Positions 13,324 to 19,735 of a stretch of 23,207 nt of DNA are shown here, piece after piece; the first letter of the stretch is position 1; the number at the start of each line of letters is the position of its first letter. The notes under the pieces were generated by a model. The model made no database searches and was not told the origin of the DNA. It saw nothing but the letters and a program-made list of their open reading frames with translations. Source of the DNA: a virus; IMG/VR virus record IMGVR_UViG_3300037674_000058, positions 1 through 23,207 of that record; one strand, written 5' to 3'. The position numbers and the translations under genes are program-made.

Positions 13324-13709
13324 GCTTCATAAACTCTTCTGAATTTTGCCTTACAGCTATAAAAGTCTCCATAATCATAAGAAGTGGAGAAATCCTCGCA
13401 AACTACTTTAAGTATAGTTTCTTTAGGTGTACCACTTGCATTACTATCAGGAATGGTAAAATTAAATGCAGTAACACCTTTTAAAGAATCGAAATAACCT
13501 ACAATATCATCTATTTCTTCTTTTGGTCTTTTATTAAAAGATACTCTAAATTCTTGAGTGATAGAGTTAATACCATCTGCTAGTCGTTGTTCATATCCAT
13601 CCCCAAAAGTAGCCACATGAACTTTAGGTTTAGATGACCTTCTCATAGATCTATCTGGACGAATAGTTCTGCTTCCAAACGTTCCTGTAGTTGTGAATCC
13701 TATTGCCAT
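13320..13709 (-). CDS. M: Minor tail protein, lambda M-like
   Basis: 129 residues. Hallmarks of the Phage_min_tail (M) family: VHVATFGDGYEQRLADGINSITQEFRVSF near residues 31-59, a FDSLKG-x-x-AFNF segment, and a C-terminal VVCEDFSTSYDYGDFYSCKAKFRRVYE. Lambda M is of similar size and forms the ring that joins the last tube hexamer to the tip. It lies directly after the tape measure and before L, the order of lambda H-M-L. Its ATG shares a base with the tape measure stop (TAATG), and its stop overlaps the L-like start as ATGA. Confidence 0.9.
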   Translation of the reverse strand: MAIGFTTTGTFGSRTIRPDRSMRRSSKPKVHVATFGDGYEQRLADGINSITQEFRVSFNKRPKEEIDDIVGYFDSLKGVTAFNFTIPDSNASGTPKETILKVVCEDFSTSYDYGDFYSCKAKFRRVYEA

Positions 13710-16700
13710 TATGCTGTCCCGTATCTATTGAGAATTCCACCAGATCGTTTCTGATTTTGTAACTCTTCTTGAACGGCTGCGGCAATAGCCCTTCCAAGTC
13801 CATCACTATCACTTCCGCCTTCTGTTTCTGTTTGCCCATCAGATGAAACATTTACAGTTATATTGTTATTTTGTGCGCTACTTCTCATATCTACAGGAAT
13901 GGCTTTACCATTTGGTAGAGGAACCACAGCTTCATTATGTCTGCCTTCTCCTATCAAACCAAGTGTAGGACTATTGGCAATTCCTCCATTAGCATACTTG
14001 CGGAAGCCTCCTTTTAGAATACCTCCATCTGCCATTCCAAGGAATCCAAGACCTGGAATCATTCCTAAAAGGTCTCCTGCTCCTCCTAATAGATCTCCGA
14101 ATATACCTCCTAACTCTCCAAACATACTTCCTAAACCTTTAAGAAAGCTACTATCTCCTGAGAAAAAGTCTCCTAATCTGGACAAGAAGGGGCCTTCTCC
14201 TGCAAAAAGATTCTCAAAAGAACTAATTACTGGTCCAAATATTGACGCGGTTCTAGTACTGCTCGTGTTTCCATAGTTTCCTTGGTCCTGACCTGCTTCA
14301 GCGTTAAACATTTGCGGTCCATCTGAATTTAAAGTAGGGCTTTCAATTTTCTTTCCAAACATTTTTTCCCAGATCCCTTTTTTCTCTTCTTCAGGAGCAG
14401 GGTCCTTGAGCATAAACATATCTTCTGGTAAAGCAGATAACCTATCGGCCGAAGACAATGTCTGCGGGGAAACCATTTCATTTTCTCCGACTCCTCCTCC
14501 TAAACCTAAAGCTCTTCTGATTGCATCGCCAACAATTCGAGCACCTTCTGTAAAGGCCTCCACGGTTTTAGTATGCACAGTAGTTGCTCCAGTTACTGCT
14601 GCATCTCTAAATGCCGCAGCAGGACTTTTTATACCCATTAAGCTCTGAATTAAATTTTCTGATATAGTATCGGCTACTTTTCCTAAAACACTTTCTGCTA
14701 TTTTTAAAAAGGCATCACTTATACTCTTTTCCTTTCCCTTTATTAAATCAGCAAGATTTGAAACTGCAGCAGTTTCAAAAGCTTGATTAGCTGCTCTTGC
14801 AATTTGTATTTGAAGTTGTTCTTGTTTTTCTAGCTCTTCTATTTGTGCTCGATATAGCTCAAGTTTTGATTCTTCAAGATCAATTGTAACTTGTTCTGCG
14901 GTAGTCCGTGCTATTCTTCTTATTTCTTGTTCTTGTTCTATTTTATTTATTTCATGTTCTAACTTAAAAATTTCATGCTCTCTATTTAGCTGCTCTGATT
15001 GTAGTCTAGTTTGTCCTGCTAATGCCTTGAATCTTGCTGTTGCAAGTCGCTGAGCATTCAAAAGCATAGTTTCTTCTATTTTTAGTATGTCATCTCGTAC
15101 TGCCTTCATTTCTTTAGAAATCTGAAGAGCTTGAGCCTGAAGCTTAGTAGCTTCTATTTGTACACCATTAACTTCGATCATTCCTGCTTCAACTTCTTGT
15201 ACCCTTTTTAAAGCATCGTCTCCTAACATTCTATCAATCATTGCTTCAGTGCCTTCTCCAAGAATGGAGTCAAAAGTGGCACCTGTATCTACTTCTCCTA
15301 GCCCTTCTATCATATTTACATAAGCTTCTCCTACATCAGTAAAAGCTTCTCCTAGTGAAGAAAATCTTGAATTTTGAACTATGAATTGTTTTTGTGTCTC
15401 ATTAAAGTTTTCTAAGGCTCTTTCGGTTCTTTCAACTCCCGTAGGTACAGATTGTAGTACTGCAGTAGCTGAAGTAACAACTGCGGGGGCTTCTCCTAAA
15501 ACGGCCTGTAATTCTGCTCTTAAAGATGCAGCACTTTGTGCCGCTGTAGCAAAGGCAAGCTCTAGATCTTGCACGGCTCCCGCTTCTAGAGGCCCTGCTT
15601 GCGCTGGCCCAAATCCCTCTGCTCGACGGTCACTAATCGCGTCGTATCTGTCTTGTAAATCTGCATCCATTCTTAAAGCCACTGCATTTGCCGTTAGTAC
15701 TTCCTGACTTATTCTTTCTATTTCAAGTGCATGTGCTCGGATAGCTGGTGCTCCTGAGGATCCTCTGCTTTCCAATAAATCTGCCTGCCTTTGAAGTAGC
15801 TCAATACCCGTTTTTATATTTTCATTAAATCCGCTCTCACCCCCTAATACTTCTAAATTCAAGTCGTCTACTTTTACCTTTTCCAAAGCCGCAGCCATGC
15901 CTAGAAAAGGTTGCATATTAAAATTACTCATTACATTTGCAAATTGCTGAACCTCTTCTAAACTAGAATTTGTATCTTTTAATCCTTGTACTAATTCGGT
16001 TATATGTTTGTTTTGGCTTGCAAAAGTATCTGATATACCTTCCATAGCATCTTGCATTGCTTTTATAGCAGGGTCTTTGAACATTTCTATAAGCTGTTTT
16101 CCCATGCTTATAGCTATAGATAATATACCTAATACACCAATAAAATTAAGAGCACTACTTGCGAATCTACCTAGATTTGCTAATCCGGCTTTTATAGTTC
16201 CCACCATTCTTCCGTGATGAGCTTGATACTCTAACAATTCTGCCTTTCTCATTGCCCAGAAGCGTTTCCATCCAGTTGAGCGCTCTGCGAGGCCTCTCTC
16301 TTCTATGGCTCTAATTATTCGGATATGTTTTCGAACTTCCGCTTTATTTCGGTTTAAAAATATTTTTTCGCTTTTACCTTTAGCACTTCTTTCAACACCA
16401 CCTAATCCACCTTTTGGAACCTTTCCAGTTTGACTCAATTCTCCAATTCTTTCTCTAGAGCGTGCGAGAGTTTCTTCAACATCTTGTATAGCGGCTGGAG
16501 CAGGGGTTAAACTTTTAATAATTCCTGTGCCTAAAAGTGCAAATGCACCTGCTAAAGCTGCAATATTCTTATTCAATCCTCCCGCTACAAACTCCGCTAT
16601 AGGGGTGATCATATCTTTTATGCTATTCAATAAATCATCAAATTCTTTTCCCATCTTAGTAAATTGATTTAATTGAACATTATAATCTTTAAACTTTTTC

Positions 16701-17407
16701 TGACCTTGAGTTATTACTGCATTTACAACTGCTTGGCTCTTTTCCCAAGTAGTTAAGTCTTTTGCAGTTTTACCCACGGTTTGAGCATAGTCTGATGTGG
16801 CCTGATCTAGCCTTACAATAATACCTAATTCGTCTAATAGTTCTGGTTCTGCTTTAATAGCACCTCTGGTTAAACGATTAAAAGAATCAGTTAAATCTCT
16901 ACCAAGTGCTAAAGAGGCACTTTTAGCGACAGCAGCTAAATCTGTGATTTGAGAAGAGTCTAAGCCTGCGGCTCTACCTATTTGAACGGCTTGTGCGGCT
17001 TCTGTGAAGTTTAGCATTTGGCCAGTGGCTTCTTGAACATTAGCAGTTAATAAAGCCATGGATTCGCCAGTTGTCTGGGCGTATTCTAATTGACCTTCTC
17101 TCATAACTCTGAGATCAGCTGCGTCTTTTAAGAATCGAAAAGCTGCGGAAATAGCAAAGATATTAGCCGCCAAAGTTGCGTAGGCTCCAACGAGTCCACC
17201 CATACCTTGCGACATTTTTGAAAAGTTTTTAGATGCACCAGAAGAAGCATTTGCAGCTCCTTTAATATTTCGATCGGCTTCTCGAGAATTTTTCGCGACC
17301 TCGCCTAACCCTTTTCCGGCTTTTTTGCTTTCAACGGCTACTTTTTTAAAGCCACCGCCTTTAGCATTTACCTCTAATTGTACCTTAGCCTTAGTCTTCT
17401 TTGCCAT
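13709..17407 (-). CDS. H: Tape measure protein, lambda H-like
   Basis: 1232 residues, the longest uninterrupted Ala-rich helical protein here. Residues 1-70 are basic and Gly/Ser-rich. Hydrophobic segments lie near 71-93, 281-300 and 415-436, fitting the membrane-inserting parts of tape measures. Residues 770-880 form a long coiled coil rich in Glu, Gln, Arg and Ile. Residues 1060-1125 repeat Phe/Gly/Leu patterns (FGELGGIFGDLLGGAGDLLG). Residues 1126-1175 hold the classic C-terminus MADGGILKGG...YANGGIANSPTLGLIGEGRHNEAVVPLPNG. At about 0.15 nm per residue this predicts a tail near 185 nm. It sets tail length, is wrapped by G/GT during assembly, and is ejected at infection. Coupled to GT by TAATG. 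Confidence 0.93.
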   Translation of the reverse strand: MAKKTKAKVQLEVNAKGGGFKKVAVESKKAGKGLGEVAKNSREADRNIKGAANASSGASKNFSKMSQGMGGLVGAYATLAANIFAISAAFRFLKDAADLRVMREGQLEYAQTTGESMALLTANVQEATGQMLNFTEAAQAVQIGRAAGLDSSQITDLAAVAKSASLALGRDLTDSFNRLTRGAIKAEPELLDELGIIVRLDQATSDYAQTVGKTAKDLTTWEKSQAVVNAVITQGQKKFKDYNVQLNQFTKMGKEFDDLLNSIKDMITPIAEFVAGGLNKNIAALAGAFALLGTGIIKSLTPAPAAIQDVEETLARSRERIGELSQTGKVPKGGLGGVERSAKGKSEKIFLNRNKAEVRKHIRIIRAIEERGLAERSTGWKRFWAMRKAELLEYQAHHGRMVGTIKAGLANLGRFASSALNFIGVLGILSIAISMGKQLIEMFKDPAIKAMQDAMEGISDTFASQNKHITELVQGLKDTNSSLEEVQQFANVMSNFNMQPFLGMAAALEKVKVDDLNLEVLGGESGFNENIKTGIELLQRQADLLESRGSSGAPAIRAHALEIERISQEVLTANAVALRMDADLQDRYDAISDRRAEGFGPAQAGPLEAGAVQDLELAFATAAQSAASLRAELQAVLGEAPAVVTSATAVLQSVPTGVERTERALENFNETQKQFIVQNSRFSSLGEAFTDVGEAYVNMIEGLGEVDTGATFDSILGEGTEAMIDRMLGDDALKRVQEVEAGMIEVNGVQIEATKLQAQALQISKEMKAVRDDILKIEETMLLNAQRLATARFKALAGQTRLQSEQLNREHEIFKLEHEINKIEQEQEIRRIARTTAEQVTIDLEESKLELYRAQIEELEKQEQLQIQIARAANQAFETAAVSNLADLIKGKEKSISDAFLKIAESVLGKVADTISENLIQSLMGIKSPAAAFRDAAVTGATTVHTKTVEAFTEGARIVGDAIRRALGLGGGVGENEMVSPQTLSSADRLSALPEDMFMLKDPAPEEEKKGIWEKMFGKKIESPTLNSDGPQMFNAEAGQDQGNYGNTSSTRTASIFGPVISSFENLFAGEGPFLSRLGDFFSGDSSFLKGLGSMFGELGGIFGDLLGGAGDLLGMIPGLGFLGMADGGILKGGFRKYANGGIANSPTLGLIGEGRHNEAVVPLPNGKAIPVDMRSSAQNNNITVNVSSDGQTETEGGSDSDGLGRAIAAAVQEELQNQKRSGGILNRYGTA

Positions 17408-17841
17408 TATCCTTGTATGTTATGGGTGTAGTTTTTACCATCACCGCCGGCTTTATTTTTCCGCTTGTCTGCCTTTCTCTTTTCTTCTGCTTGTTCTGCT
17501 CTATAATTAACTAGTAATCTTTCGTACATTTTCATAAAGTACATAATTACTTTTTGATCTTCTATTTCCCATATGTCGAATAACTGACTACAATGAGACC
17601 AATCTTTTCCCATATATGATCCAGACATTCCTTCCCAAACATCTGATAGAAGGTCAAACATAAAAAATGCCACTTGAATCTCAAGCGGAAAGTCCGATTG
17701 AGATAGCGGCATCTTTGATGGATCAGGCTCTTCCCCTAACTGTTCACAAATCCTGTAATACTTTTCTATATCAATAGTAGCATTACGCTGATTTATAAAT
17801 CGAACAAATAGACCCTGAATTTGCTCTACTTGTTCCCAGTA
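17407..17841 (-). CDS. T: T domain of tail assembly chaperone GT, made by -1 frameshift
   Basis: This reading frame is open from 17853 to its stop at 17407, with no credible separate start before an internal ATG at 17712 that lacks a good ribosome site. After the -1 slip at 17841-17847 translation continues FYWEQVEQIQGLFVRFINQ and adds 144 residues. The GT fusion (17407-18272) is then 144 + 144 = 288 residues. The T part has a helical segment (LEIQVAFFMFDLLSDVW...DQKVIMYFMKMYERLLVNYRAEQAEEKRKADKRKNK) and a very basic end. In lambda the T domain of GT recruits tube subunits while G coats the tape measure. The stop shares one base with the tape measure ATG. A stand-alone 101-residue protein from 17712 is the alternative, but it would leave 113 nt of conserved open frame unexplained. 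Confidence 0.85.
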   Translation of the reverse strand, partial: YWEQVEQIQGLFVRFINQRNATIDIEKYYRICEQLGEEPDPSKMPLSQSDFPLEIQVAFFMFDLLSDVWEGMSGSYMGKDWSHCSQLFDIWEIEDQKVIMYFMKMYERLLVNYRAEQAEEKRKADKRKNKAGGDGKNYTHNIQG

Positions 17842-17847
17842 AAATTT
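17802..17847 (-). promoter_or_regulatory. Programmed -1 ribosomal frameshift signal
   Basis: Slippery heptamer A AAT TTT in the zero frame of G (17847-17841), the canonical X XXY YYZ form. After a 5-nt spacer (ACTGG) comes the 10-bp stem GAACAAGTAG (17835-17826) with CTATTTGTTC (17811-17802), fully paired with one G.U. The 14-nt loop is 17825-17812. The G stop codon TAG lies within the first stem arm. Four sense codons separate the TTT from the stop. Confidence 0.88.
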
Positions 17848-18272
17848 TCGAGGTCACCTACAACATCTGTTACCCATGTATCAAAATCATTAGAATTTTT
17901 CATGAGTAACATCGCATTATCATGCGTATAGGGCAGCATATCATTAGGATCATAATCTGAAACATCCACCAAAAGAAACTCTTCTAAGTATGAAAATTTC
18001 AGGCCTTTCCAATCTTTAATTACTGCTTTTGTATATTCTGTGAGAAACTTCTCTTCGTCTAAAGACTCTTCTGGTTGGTGAGTCTTTCGATTAAATTTTG
18101 TAGATAAAGACTTTTTCCTTAGTTTTAGCAGTTCTTCTCTTGCTAAATAACAGATAGATACTGAGAAACCATCACGTCCAGGAAAATCTATTGATACTGT
18201 TTTGCTTGGAGTCATAAGACTCGCTAGTGAAACCGGTTCAGCTTTCGGTTTCGCAGTTGCTGTGTCTACCAT
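17826..18272 (-). CDS. G: Tail assembly chaperone, lambda G-like
   Basis: 148 residues, starting after AGGAAG with 5 nt spacing. The sequence is beta then helical: SLASLMTPSKTVSIDFPGRDGFSVSICYLAREELLKLRKKSL, EEKFLTEYTKAVIKDWKGL, DVSDYDPNDMLPYTHDNAMLLMKNSNDFDTWVTDVV. This layout (beta start, FxxxYxxxVIxDWKGL core, C-terminal helix near D-x-W) is shared by many siphophage chaperones placed between tube and tape measure genes. Together with the frameshifted product GT it should keep the tape measure soluble and start tube polymerisation. It is not expected in mature virions. It lies behind the promoter/terminator cluster at 18293-18367. Confidence 0.85.
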   Translation of the reverse strand: MVDTATAKPKAEPVSLASLMTPSKTVSIDFPGRDGFSVSICYLAREELLKLRKKSLSTKFNRKTHQPEESLDEEKFLTEYTKAVIKDWKGLKFSYLEEFLLVDVSDYDPNDMLPYTHDNAMLLMKNSNDFDTWVTDVVGDLENFTGNK

Positions 18273-18292: not shown

Positions 18293-18322
18293 AAAAAAAT
18301 GGCGAGGGGGTTAACCCCCCTC
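18293..18322 (-). terminator. Intrinsic terminator between major tail protein and G
   Basis: Minus strand: GAGGGGG (18322-18316), loop GTTAA, CCCCCTC (18310-18304), then GCCA and seven T (18299-18293). The stem is 7 bp and almost all G-C. It probably limits readthrough from the highly expressed tail tube gene. It also lies only about 10 nt downstream of the predicted start of the promoter at 18339-18367. Confidence 0.85.
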
Positions 18323-18338
18323 ACTCGATTATTAATAC

Positions 18339-18367
18339 ATTATATTTCACTTTGACAAAAATGTCAA
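18339..18367 (-). promoter_or_regulatory. Consensus sigma70 promoter upstream of the tail assembly genes
   Basis: Minus strand: TTGACA (18367-18362), 17-bp spacer, TATAAT (18344-18339). Both hexamers and the spacer are exact consensus, which is rare in natural genomes. The predicted start is near 18332. The promoter lies right behind the stop of the major tail protein and points at G, GT and the tape measure, but the terminator at 18293-18322 stands between them. Confidence 0.9.
18352..18367. promoter_or_regulatory. Candidate operator: inverted repeat covering the -35
   Basis: TTGACA-TTTT-TGTCAA is a perfect 6+6 inverted repeat with a 4-nt centre. Its left half is the -35 hexamer itself and its right half lies in the spacer. 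A dimeric repressor or activator could bind here. It may also be chance, because a -35 followed by its own complement needs only six matching bases. Confidence 0.4.
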
Positions 18368-18376
18368 GATTTATTT

Positions 18377-19735
18377 TTAGGCCGGTGTTGGACCGTAGTA
18401 TACTAATGTTACTTCGTCTGTGTCATCAATTGAAGTAGGCAAGGCTTGGAATGTAGTTTCCAAGGTAATGATATCTTCAATAGAGTGAGTAGGAATATCC
18501 ACGTGACACTTAGCAGCATTAATTTGTAAACTTGGAGTTACTGGACTTGCAGTAGTACCACCTCCAATACAGAATACTAAATTAAATTGATTAGAAACTA
18601 CCTCACGAATTGCGGTAACATCATCGAAAAAGTCCTTACTTGCAGTAGTAGTTGCTGTATCATCTGATAGATAACAAGTAAAACTACCTCCAAAAGCACG
18701 TGTACCCGTTACGTGACCAATAGGTACGTTCACCACGCCTAATTCTTCTGGTGTTAAGTATGTAACATTATTACTAAGAGTTATATTGCCCCCTGTTAAT
18801 GTTAGTACATAATCATCTTCTAGTACATTAGATCCTGTTCCACCTGGGTCTCTGTCTACCGGATCAACTGTTAATGTTGTTAATCGATTACGAATAAAGT
18901 TATTCGTTGCAGTAGTACCTTCAGTATAATCAGCAGCCGGAGGACCGAAAGTTAATACAGTATTATTTGCAATCGTTTGAGAAGTTGACAATACAAAAGT
19001 ATTATTATCTGTTATTGAAGCAATCTTCGGTGTACCAACTATACCGGTGCCACTAACTTCTTGTCCGACTACGAGAGTACCAGTATCTGTGGTAGATATA
19101 TTTACAGTAGTAGATGAACTAACTGCAGGGGTAACTACTCGTGTTGAGGAGTACTGAGTAATAGTATCTGCGAATCCAGACCACTGAATACTTGCAACAC
19201 CATCAATGTCAAAATCAATAGAGGCTTCATTAAGAACAATATTACTTAGTTTATAAGTAACCTTATTAGCGTCACCTAATTCAAAATATAAGGTTGCACC
19301 TGCTGCTGGGCCAAGTGTTGATTTGTTTGATTCACTAAAGTCAATATCTAAATTAGTGCCATCATGTGTAGTTTGATTTGTAAAGTCAAAAGCAGTAGCA
19401 TTATGAGTAGCAGGTCCGGAGAATAATGCCCATAGTGCTTCCTCTACTGCGTGATGATAAGCATTATCATCTACTGCTCCTGTTCCGCTTCCTGCGGACT
19501 TGAACGGACGTATATAAGTACCAAAAGAAAAATCAACGGGGGCAAGAGAGTCATTAAAAGCTCTTCGTCCTCGACGACTTACTCCTGCAGTACTTTCCAT
19601 CTCGTTCAAGGTTATTTCCGACACATTCGTAGCCTGTGAAAAGCTAAAGCCTTCGAGGACAGGGATTTTCCAAGTTTTAGTCCCTATCTGCAAACGCATT
19701 ATCGAGTCGCGGCTAAAATATAATTGTTGAGCCAT
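18377..19735 (-). CDS. Major tail (tube) protein with inserted Ig-like/beta domain
   Basis: 452 residues, about twice the size of a simple tube protein. The N-terminal tube part (MAQQLYFSRDSIMRLQIGTKTWKIPVLEGFSFSQATNVSEITLNEM...STAGVSRRGRRAFNDSLAPVDFSFGTYIRP) runs to about 198. The pattern resumes at about 270-452 (TTLTVDP...VLTLTGGNITLSNNVTYLTPEELG...GSFTCYL...SLQINAAKCHVDIPTHSIEDIITLETTFQALP). Residues about 199-266 are a separate beta module (TLVVGQEVSGTGIVGTPKIASITDNNTFVLS) of the kind used as surface decoration in phage proteins. Size and layout recall long-tail tubes such as T5 pb6, where two tube folds occur in one chain; here that is inference. Strong AAGGAGAT site upstream, terminator downstream, position between tail terminator and chaperone: all fit the most abundant tail protein. 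Confidence 0.87.
   Translation of the reverse strand: MAQQLYFSRDSIMRLQIGTKTWKIPVLEGFSFSQATNVSEITLNEMESTAGVSRRGRRAFNDSLAPVDFSFGTYIRPFKSAGSGTGAVDDNAYHHAVEEALWALFSGPATHNATAFDFTNQTTHDGTNLDIDFSESNKSTLGPAAGATLYFELGDANKVTYKLSNIVLNEASIDFDIDGVASIQWSGFADTITQYSSTRVVTPAVSSSTTVNISTTDTGTLVVGQEVSGTGIVGTPKIASITDNNTFVLSTSQTIANNTVLTFGPPAADYTEGTTATNNFIRNRLTTLTVDPVDRDPGGTGSNVLEDDYVLTLTGGNITLSNNVTYLTPEELGVVNVPIGHVTGTRAFGGSFTCYLSDDTATTTASKDFFDDVTAIREVVSNQFNLVFCIGGGTTASPVTPSLQINAAKCHVDIPTHSIEDIITLETTFQALPTSIDDTDEVTLVYYGPTPA

Follow-up and report, generated by a model that had tools for sequence, protein, structure and literature searches.

The window analysed here (23,207 nucleotides, the whole of a 23.2-kb IMG/VR record) carries a genuine frameshift cassette at the junction of two tail assembly chaperone frames, G and T. 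It consists of a slippery heptamer A AAT TTT and a 10-bp stem, and a chance origin is excluded because the cassette is conserved among relatives. We are highly confident in reading it as a programmed -1 frameshift that yields mostly G protein (148 aa) and, as a minority product, a GT fusion (288 aa), in a tail assembly chaperone of the T5 type whose dosing signal is exchangeable and whose T frame includes a predicted terminator. This is a known mechanism in kind, the lambda-type G/GT shift, with a new signal. All features described below are on the minus strand.

The two frames are placed between the genes for the major tail protein (18377..19735; phrog_3575, E=1.5e-42) and the tape measure protein (13709..17407; phrog_3779, E=1.8e-41). 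G is a zero-frame ORF of 148 aa (17826..18272) identified by ORF calling, by its match to phrog_313 (tail assembly chaperone, E=9.6e-10) and by its predicted fold. The T part of the fusion lies in the -1 frame (17407..17841; 144 codons plus the stop TAA), was defined by reading the frame, and matches phrog_3914 (tail assembly chaperone, E=3.7e-17). These matches and the gene position support the G/GT assignment made in an earlier sequence-only reading of this DNA. Relatives in annotated phage records are mainly T5-like (Demerecviridae), with 899 records for G and 892 for T. Two of the records carrying enterobacterial T5-like chaperone genes, MG065642.1 (Campylobacter phage A148) and OR846901.1 (Listeria phage LM 4-11-1), are possibly mislabelled or contaminated. 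Modelled with AlphaFold (mean pLDDT 80), G retrieved T5-like 'tape measure chaperones' from BFVD (best E=1.1e-13), and the HK97 chaperone 2ob9 matched the model only at E=4.4 (TM 0.33-0.42). PDB profile and fold searches gave no significant match, Pfam searches with G and T and an Rfam search gave no match, and no relatives were returned by a genome-contig search or by viral scans seeded with two Vibrio proteins, L152 and L148.

On the minus strand the zero-frame end of G reads GAA AAT TTT ACT GGG AAC AAG TAG. The heptamer (17841..17847) is in phase and is separated from the G stop (TAG, 17828-17826) by four sense codons. It is followed by a 5-nt spacer, ACTGG (17836..17840), the 5' arm of the stem, GAACAAGTAG (17826..17835), a loop of 14 nt (17812..17825) and the 3' arm, CTATTTGTTC (17802..17811), as defined by RNA folding and, for the arms, by pair counts and covariation. 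The arms form 10 bp with one G.U, and an optional eleventh pair (A-U) would reduce the loop to 12 nt. Cassette RNA has a minimum free energy of -15.2 kcal/mol (z = -5.3), and none of 200 shuffled sequences folded equally well. In signals of the X_XXY_YYZ type the stimulatory structure lies 5-9 nt downstream of the heptamer; the stem in the window is at 5 nt. The sequence-only reading had placed heptamer, spacer, stem and loop exactly in this way, and its coordinates were verified. It also stated that the loop encloses the G stop, which is incorrect: TAG forms the final three bases of the 5' arm.

Just upstream of the heptamer a TGA (17854..17856) closes the -1 frame, which is then open for 144 codons up to a TAATG junction, where the T-frame TAA overlaps the ATG of the tape measure gene at 17407; this, too, had been described from the letters alone and is accurate. 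The predicted fusion would thus have 288 residues, 144 from G and 144 from T. ORF calling instead starts T at the ATG at 17712 and gives a protein of 101 aa, losing 43 residues, in agreement with the loss of about 43 that had been anticipated. The frame overlap in the window contains no other heptamer in phase. Nor does the window match the +1 motif UUU_CGN, since its T occupies the -1 frame and ACT comes after its TTT.

In the mechanism that we propose, the hairpin would hold back ribosomes whose tRNA-Asn and tRNA-Phe are paired to A AAU UUU, 5 nt upstream of it. A minority of these would slip by -1 and produce GT, and those that do not shift would terminate at a UAG within the hairpin's own 5' arm. 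We infer both the efficiency of this slippage and the function of GT. The roles assumed for the products are taken from lambda G and GT (reviewed in PMC5009743): by analogy, G would coat the tape measure protein, and the major tail protein would be recruited through the T domain.

Scans of IMG/VR yielded 141 loci in which both frames are present, corresponding to 79 distinct 60-mers. All 141 have T in the -1 frame and an in-phase A AAT TTT; the distance from heptamer to G stop is nearly always exactly 19 nt. Codon choice at the site is also fixed: AAT is used in 77/77 cases (254/360 elsewhere in G), TTT in 77/77 (339/420 elsewhere) and, immediately before the heptamer, GAA for 75/75 Glu (711/947 elsewhere), although these counts come from related sequences, with homologs down to about 50% identity, and are not independent. 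The heptamer is universal in the marine clade to which the window belongs, with its synonymous codons fixed. We found no relative in which the heptamer is lost and T has a conserved start with a ribosome site: some slippery signal is present in all usable junctions, and 53 of 77 T frames contain no start preceded by a Shine-Dalgarno-like motif. Among the relatives, T has no conserved start that is preceded by a ribosome site.

The stem is supported by comparison as well as by folding. In an alignment of 64 sequences, pairing across the 11 positions of the stem reaches 78.4%; sliding the 3' arm by one to three columns lowers it to 25-45%. Cells in which both sides of a pair have changed number 34 (13.6 in shuffles), and the covariation score of 0.146 was not reached in any of 500 shuffles. 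In 67/77 sequences, against 10.6% of shuffles, a stem of 7 bp or more without interruption begins no more than 12 nt from the heptamer; 10/77 lack one. In several subclades the 3' arm has been relocated, yet its pairing partner remains the 5' arm around CAAGTA; for example, the loop is 7 nt in L032, L043 and L289, and the 3' arms of L057, L272 and L280 are placed differently. When folding was scanned in sliding windows of 48 nt, the mean z was -3.35 at the heptamer (81% below -2) and about 0 upstream; the remainder of the scan was nearly flat except for one further peak at +120 nt. With synonymous shuffling of T codons and the overlap held fixed, the mean z was -1.97. The RNAalifold consensus is weak, with 5 pairs; it is short across the whole alignment because the outer pairs are lineage-specific. 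On these alignments the core of the stem is firm and the outer pairs are particular to each lineage.

We then classified 370 related loci from a widened sampling with a single classifier. A -1 A_AAU_UUU signal was found at 145 distinct junctions, a -1 G_GGA_AAC signal at 37 and a +1 UUU_CGU or UUU_CGA signal at 29, the last in T5 and Vibrio T5-like phages. One junction (L067) carries A_AAA_AAC in phase with T in the -1 frame; its G is a very distant homolog, with 31% identity over part of the protein. T is truncated in 3 junctions, and no usable junction is without a signal. In T5 the +1 site reads GAT ACT TTT CGT AGC. The T5-like phages sampled (L148-L160, L162, L163) always have T in the +1 frame and TTT CGT or TTT CGA at the conserved Phe, and UUU_CGN is present in 11/11 dereplicated lineages of the T5 family. 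The shortest +1 overlap is 11 nt (L148, AAC TTT CGT TAA). A -2 shift was considered for these phages and rejected: tRNA-Phe cannot re-pair two bases back at AAC UUU CGU, and the 11-nt overlap of L148 leaves UUU_CGN as the only site. UUU_CGN is likely to be the +1 frameshift site of T5-like phages.

All signals align at the same Asn-Phe at the end of G. The same conserved Phe codon serves A_AAU_UUU and UUU_CGN, G_GGA_AAC is one codon further upstream, and the -1 fusions share a register (LENF-YWEQ, LANF-YEEQ and LGN-LFEEQ). G_GGA_AAC is used by freshwater-type T5-like contigs of up to about 102 kb (L192-L214, L295-L370), and within this clade it has been replaced by A_AAU_UUU in L190, L191, L194, L199 and L208. 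In a tree of the fusion proteins, built by a quick method with the junction removed and left unrooted, the +1 rows fall on one side of a branch with support 100, and the A_AAU_UUU pair L194 and L208 is nested in the G_GGA_AAC clade, also with support 100. The tree requires three changes of signal, one of them nested, compared with a mean of 29 when signals are shuffled; being unrooted, it gives no direction for the change between +1 and -1. The comparison shows at least three frameshift solutions within one homologous gene pair, one of them +1. The sequence-only reading was correct that A AAT TTT is a different solution from that of lambda, but this was incomplete given the range of solutions in this gene pair. 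In the proposed mechanism the dosing signal would be exchangeable at the same Asn-Phe between -1 A_AAU_UUU with its stem, -1 G_GGA_AAC and +1 UUU_CGN.

Frameshifts in tail chaperone genes are textbook knowledge, and their direction is known to differ between unrelated phages. The present set adds a traceable series of switches in a single gene pair: -1 A_AAU_UUU, -1 G_GGA_AAC and +1 UUU_CGN all fall on one codon pair, and one replacement is nested inside a clade. How a signal is exchanged without loss of the fusion protein thereby becomes a directly testable question. The window shares with lambda the order major tail protein, G, T, tape measure, a -1 shift near the end of G, a T frame that runs on to the tape measure gene, and a short G with a long GT. 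It differs in its signal (A AAU UUU instead of G GGA AAG, followed by a strong hairpin that has the G stop in its 5' arm), in its T5-type chaperone proteins and in a terminator-like hairpin inside T. The T5.143 and T5.142 genes of the T5 family (Demerecviridae) are homologous to G and T by sequence and predicted fold, and the shift falls on the homologous Phe codon; unlike the window, this family has T in the +1 frame at UUU_CGN and a terminator after T, not inside it.

The genome paper on Sugarland describes T5-like tape measure chaperones without a predicted frameshift signal (PMC6256483); UUU_CGN provides a specific proposed site for such phages. Fusion in T5-like phages was already suggested by the record of Salmonella phage Shivani (KP143763; L372), in which the chaperone frames are joined. 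By length arithmetic the span of this join implies a 2-nt overlap (-2). Set against the conserved motif, a +1 at UUU_CGU, the join is possibly an annotation slip. The motif of the T5-type homologs is that of influenza PA-X, where the UUU_CGN +1 shift has been demonstrated by mass spectrometry (PMC3498833), and of the HF1 haloviruses, where it has been proposed (PMC7230728); the window uses -1 A_AAU_UUU instead. Phage Mu gpGT, as cited in PMC3498833, is a tail-chaperone frameshift that also departs from the lambda geometry, although in the -2 direction and at another slippery site. We found no report in the open-access literature of A_AAU_UUU in a phage tail chaperone.

The earlier reading recognised the frameshift at this locus correctly and overlooked a second element, a terminator-like hairpin followed by U6 inside the part of T that is read only after a shift (17662..17715, with the U6 at 17662..17667; MFE -29.7, z -6.6). 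It has a G+C-containing stem followed by a U tract, the form used to recognise terminators. The hairpin is kept in 73 distinct relatives of the wider clade of the window and is missing from other marine subclades. Pairing in the outer stem reaches 97% (38-60% in slid controls), its covariation exceeds that of all shuffles, an inner pair shows a U-A/C-G exchange, and at least 5 U follow in 73/73 aligned copies. In a synonymous-codon control the mean z was -2.52 for the marine set, -5.0 for the window and -0.05 for the freshwater set. Terminators are predicted inside T in 50/77 rows of the window's clade and none is predicted there in 27/77. In T5-like phages they are instead predicted after T, with offsets of +421 to +494 nt relative to the G stop (9/11), and one is annotated in the T5 record too; in the freshwater clade they are near or after the end of T, at +371 to +399 nt. 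T5-like phages have 25-97 nt between T and the tape measure gene and the listed freshwater rows 33-132 nt; in the clade with the hairpin this gap measures about 2 nt. The simplest reading of these positions is that the terminator of the gap now lies inside T where the gap has gone.

Two other ways of explaining the overlapping frames must be weighed. In one, T would be expressed on its own, through internal initiation or through reinitiation close to the G stop, and the overlap would be incidental. ORF callers do provide T with a start of its own, many phage records show two separate CDSs, and the hairpin clade conserves the ATG at 17712. This start, however, is within the strong hairpin, lacks a ribosome site at a suitable distance and would cost 43 residues that are conserved. 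A slippery signal would be needless for an independent T, yet one is present at all usable junctions, and the survey of 77 T frames, with its 53 lacking a start behind a Shine-Dalgarno-like motif, does not support such a start; we regard this explanation as very improbable. Even less credit can be given to the idea that polymerase rather than ribosomal slippage, on AAAATTTT, generates the fusion. The site does contain A4 and T4 runs. These fall short of the homopolymer length of about 8-9 that polymerase slippage needs; moreover, the downstream stem is selected at the RNA level with spacing of the frameshift type, and the G GGA AAC of the sister clades contains no long run. On run length and these sister clades it is rejected, and programmed ribosomal frameshifting is the reading retained.

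A further alternative concerns only the hairpin in T, which could be an element of mRNA stability, processing or translational pausing and not a terminator; the frameshift would be unaffected. We give this a substantial minority of the weight. A hairpin alone is no proof of termination, this one sits in a translated frame, and the 27/77 rows with no predicted terminator there are consistent with another role. Against this are the U tracts that follow every aligned copy and the predicted terminators that T5 and the freshwater phages have in the T/tape-measure gap instead. Termination remains our preferred role for the hairpin. Located about 110 nt into the stretch read only by shifted ribosomes, it would probably lower transcription into the tape measure gene relative to the chaperone, an activity that we infer from its form and conservation. 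A message ending at U6 would encode the whole of G and a GT truncated without a stop codon. A hairpin within a frameshift-only frame suggests that controls of translation and transcription are stacked on one gene, and frameshifting and attenuation might jointly set the doses of chaperone and tape measure protein.

Upstream of G we found a sequence match to a sigma-70-like promoter, TTGACA-N17-TATAAT (18339..18367; 12/12 positions), and, between it and G, a strong terminator-like hairpin with T7 (18302..18324). Matches of at least 10/12 occur in 34/70 marine rows (12/12 in 16 of them), in 1/11 T5-like rows and in 3/20 freshwater rows. The hairpin in T is also present in 33 of the 34 rows with the promoter, an association that is mostly shared descent and offers too few independent pairs on the tree. 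We tentatively suggest, with rather less than even confidence, a dosing system with two layers: a dedicated sigma-70 promoter would make the G message, the frameshift would set the ratio of GT to G, and the terminator in the frameshift-only frame would limit transcription into both the C-terminal part of GT and the tape measure gene. Shifted ribosomes, which alone translate that stretch, might themselves alter termination, and across T5-related phages the frameshift signal could be freely replaced at one conserved Asn-Phe, even between +1 and -1, with the fusion kept. The predicted promoter and the strong hairpin with T7 are at most about 15 nt apart, and the pair could represent either an attenuator or the source of a very short RNA. 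In several relatives the terminator precedes the promoter instead.
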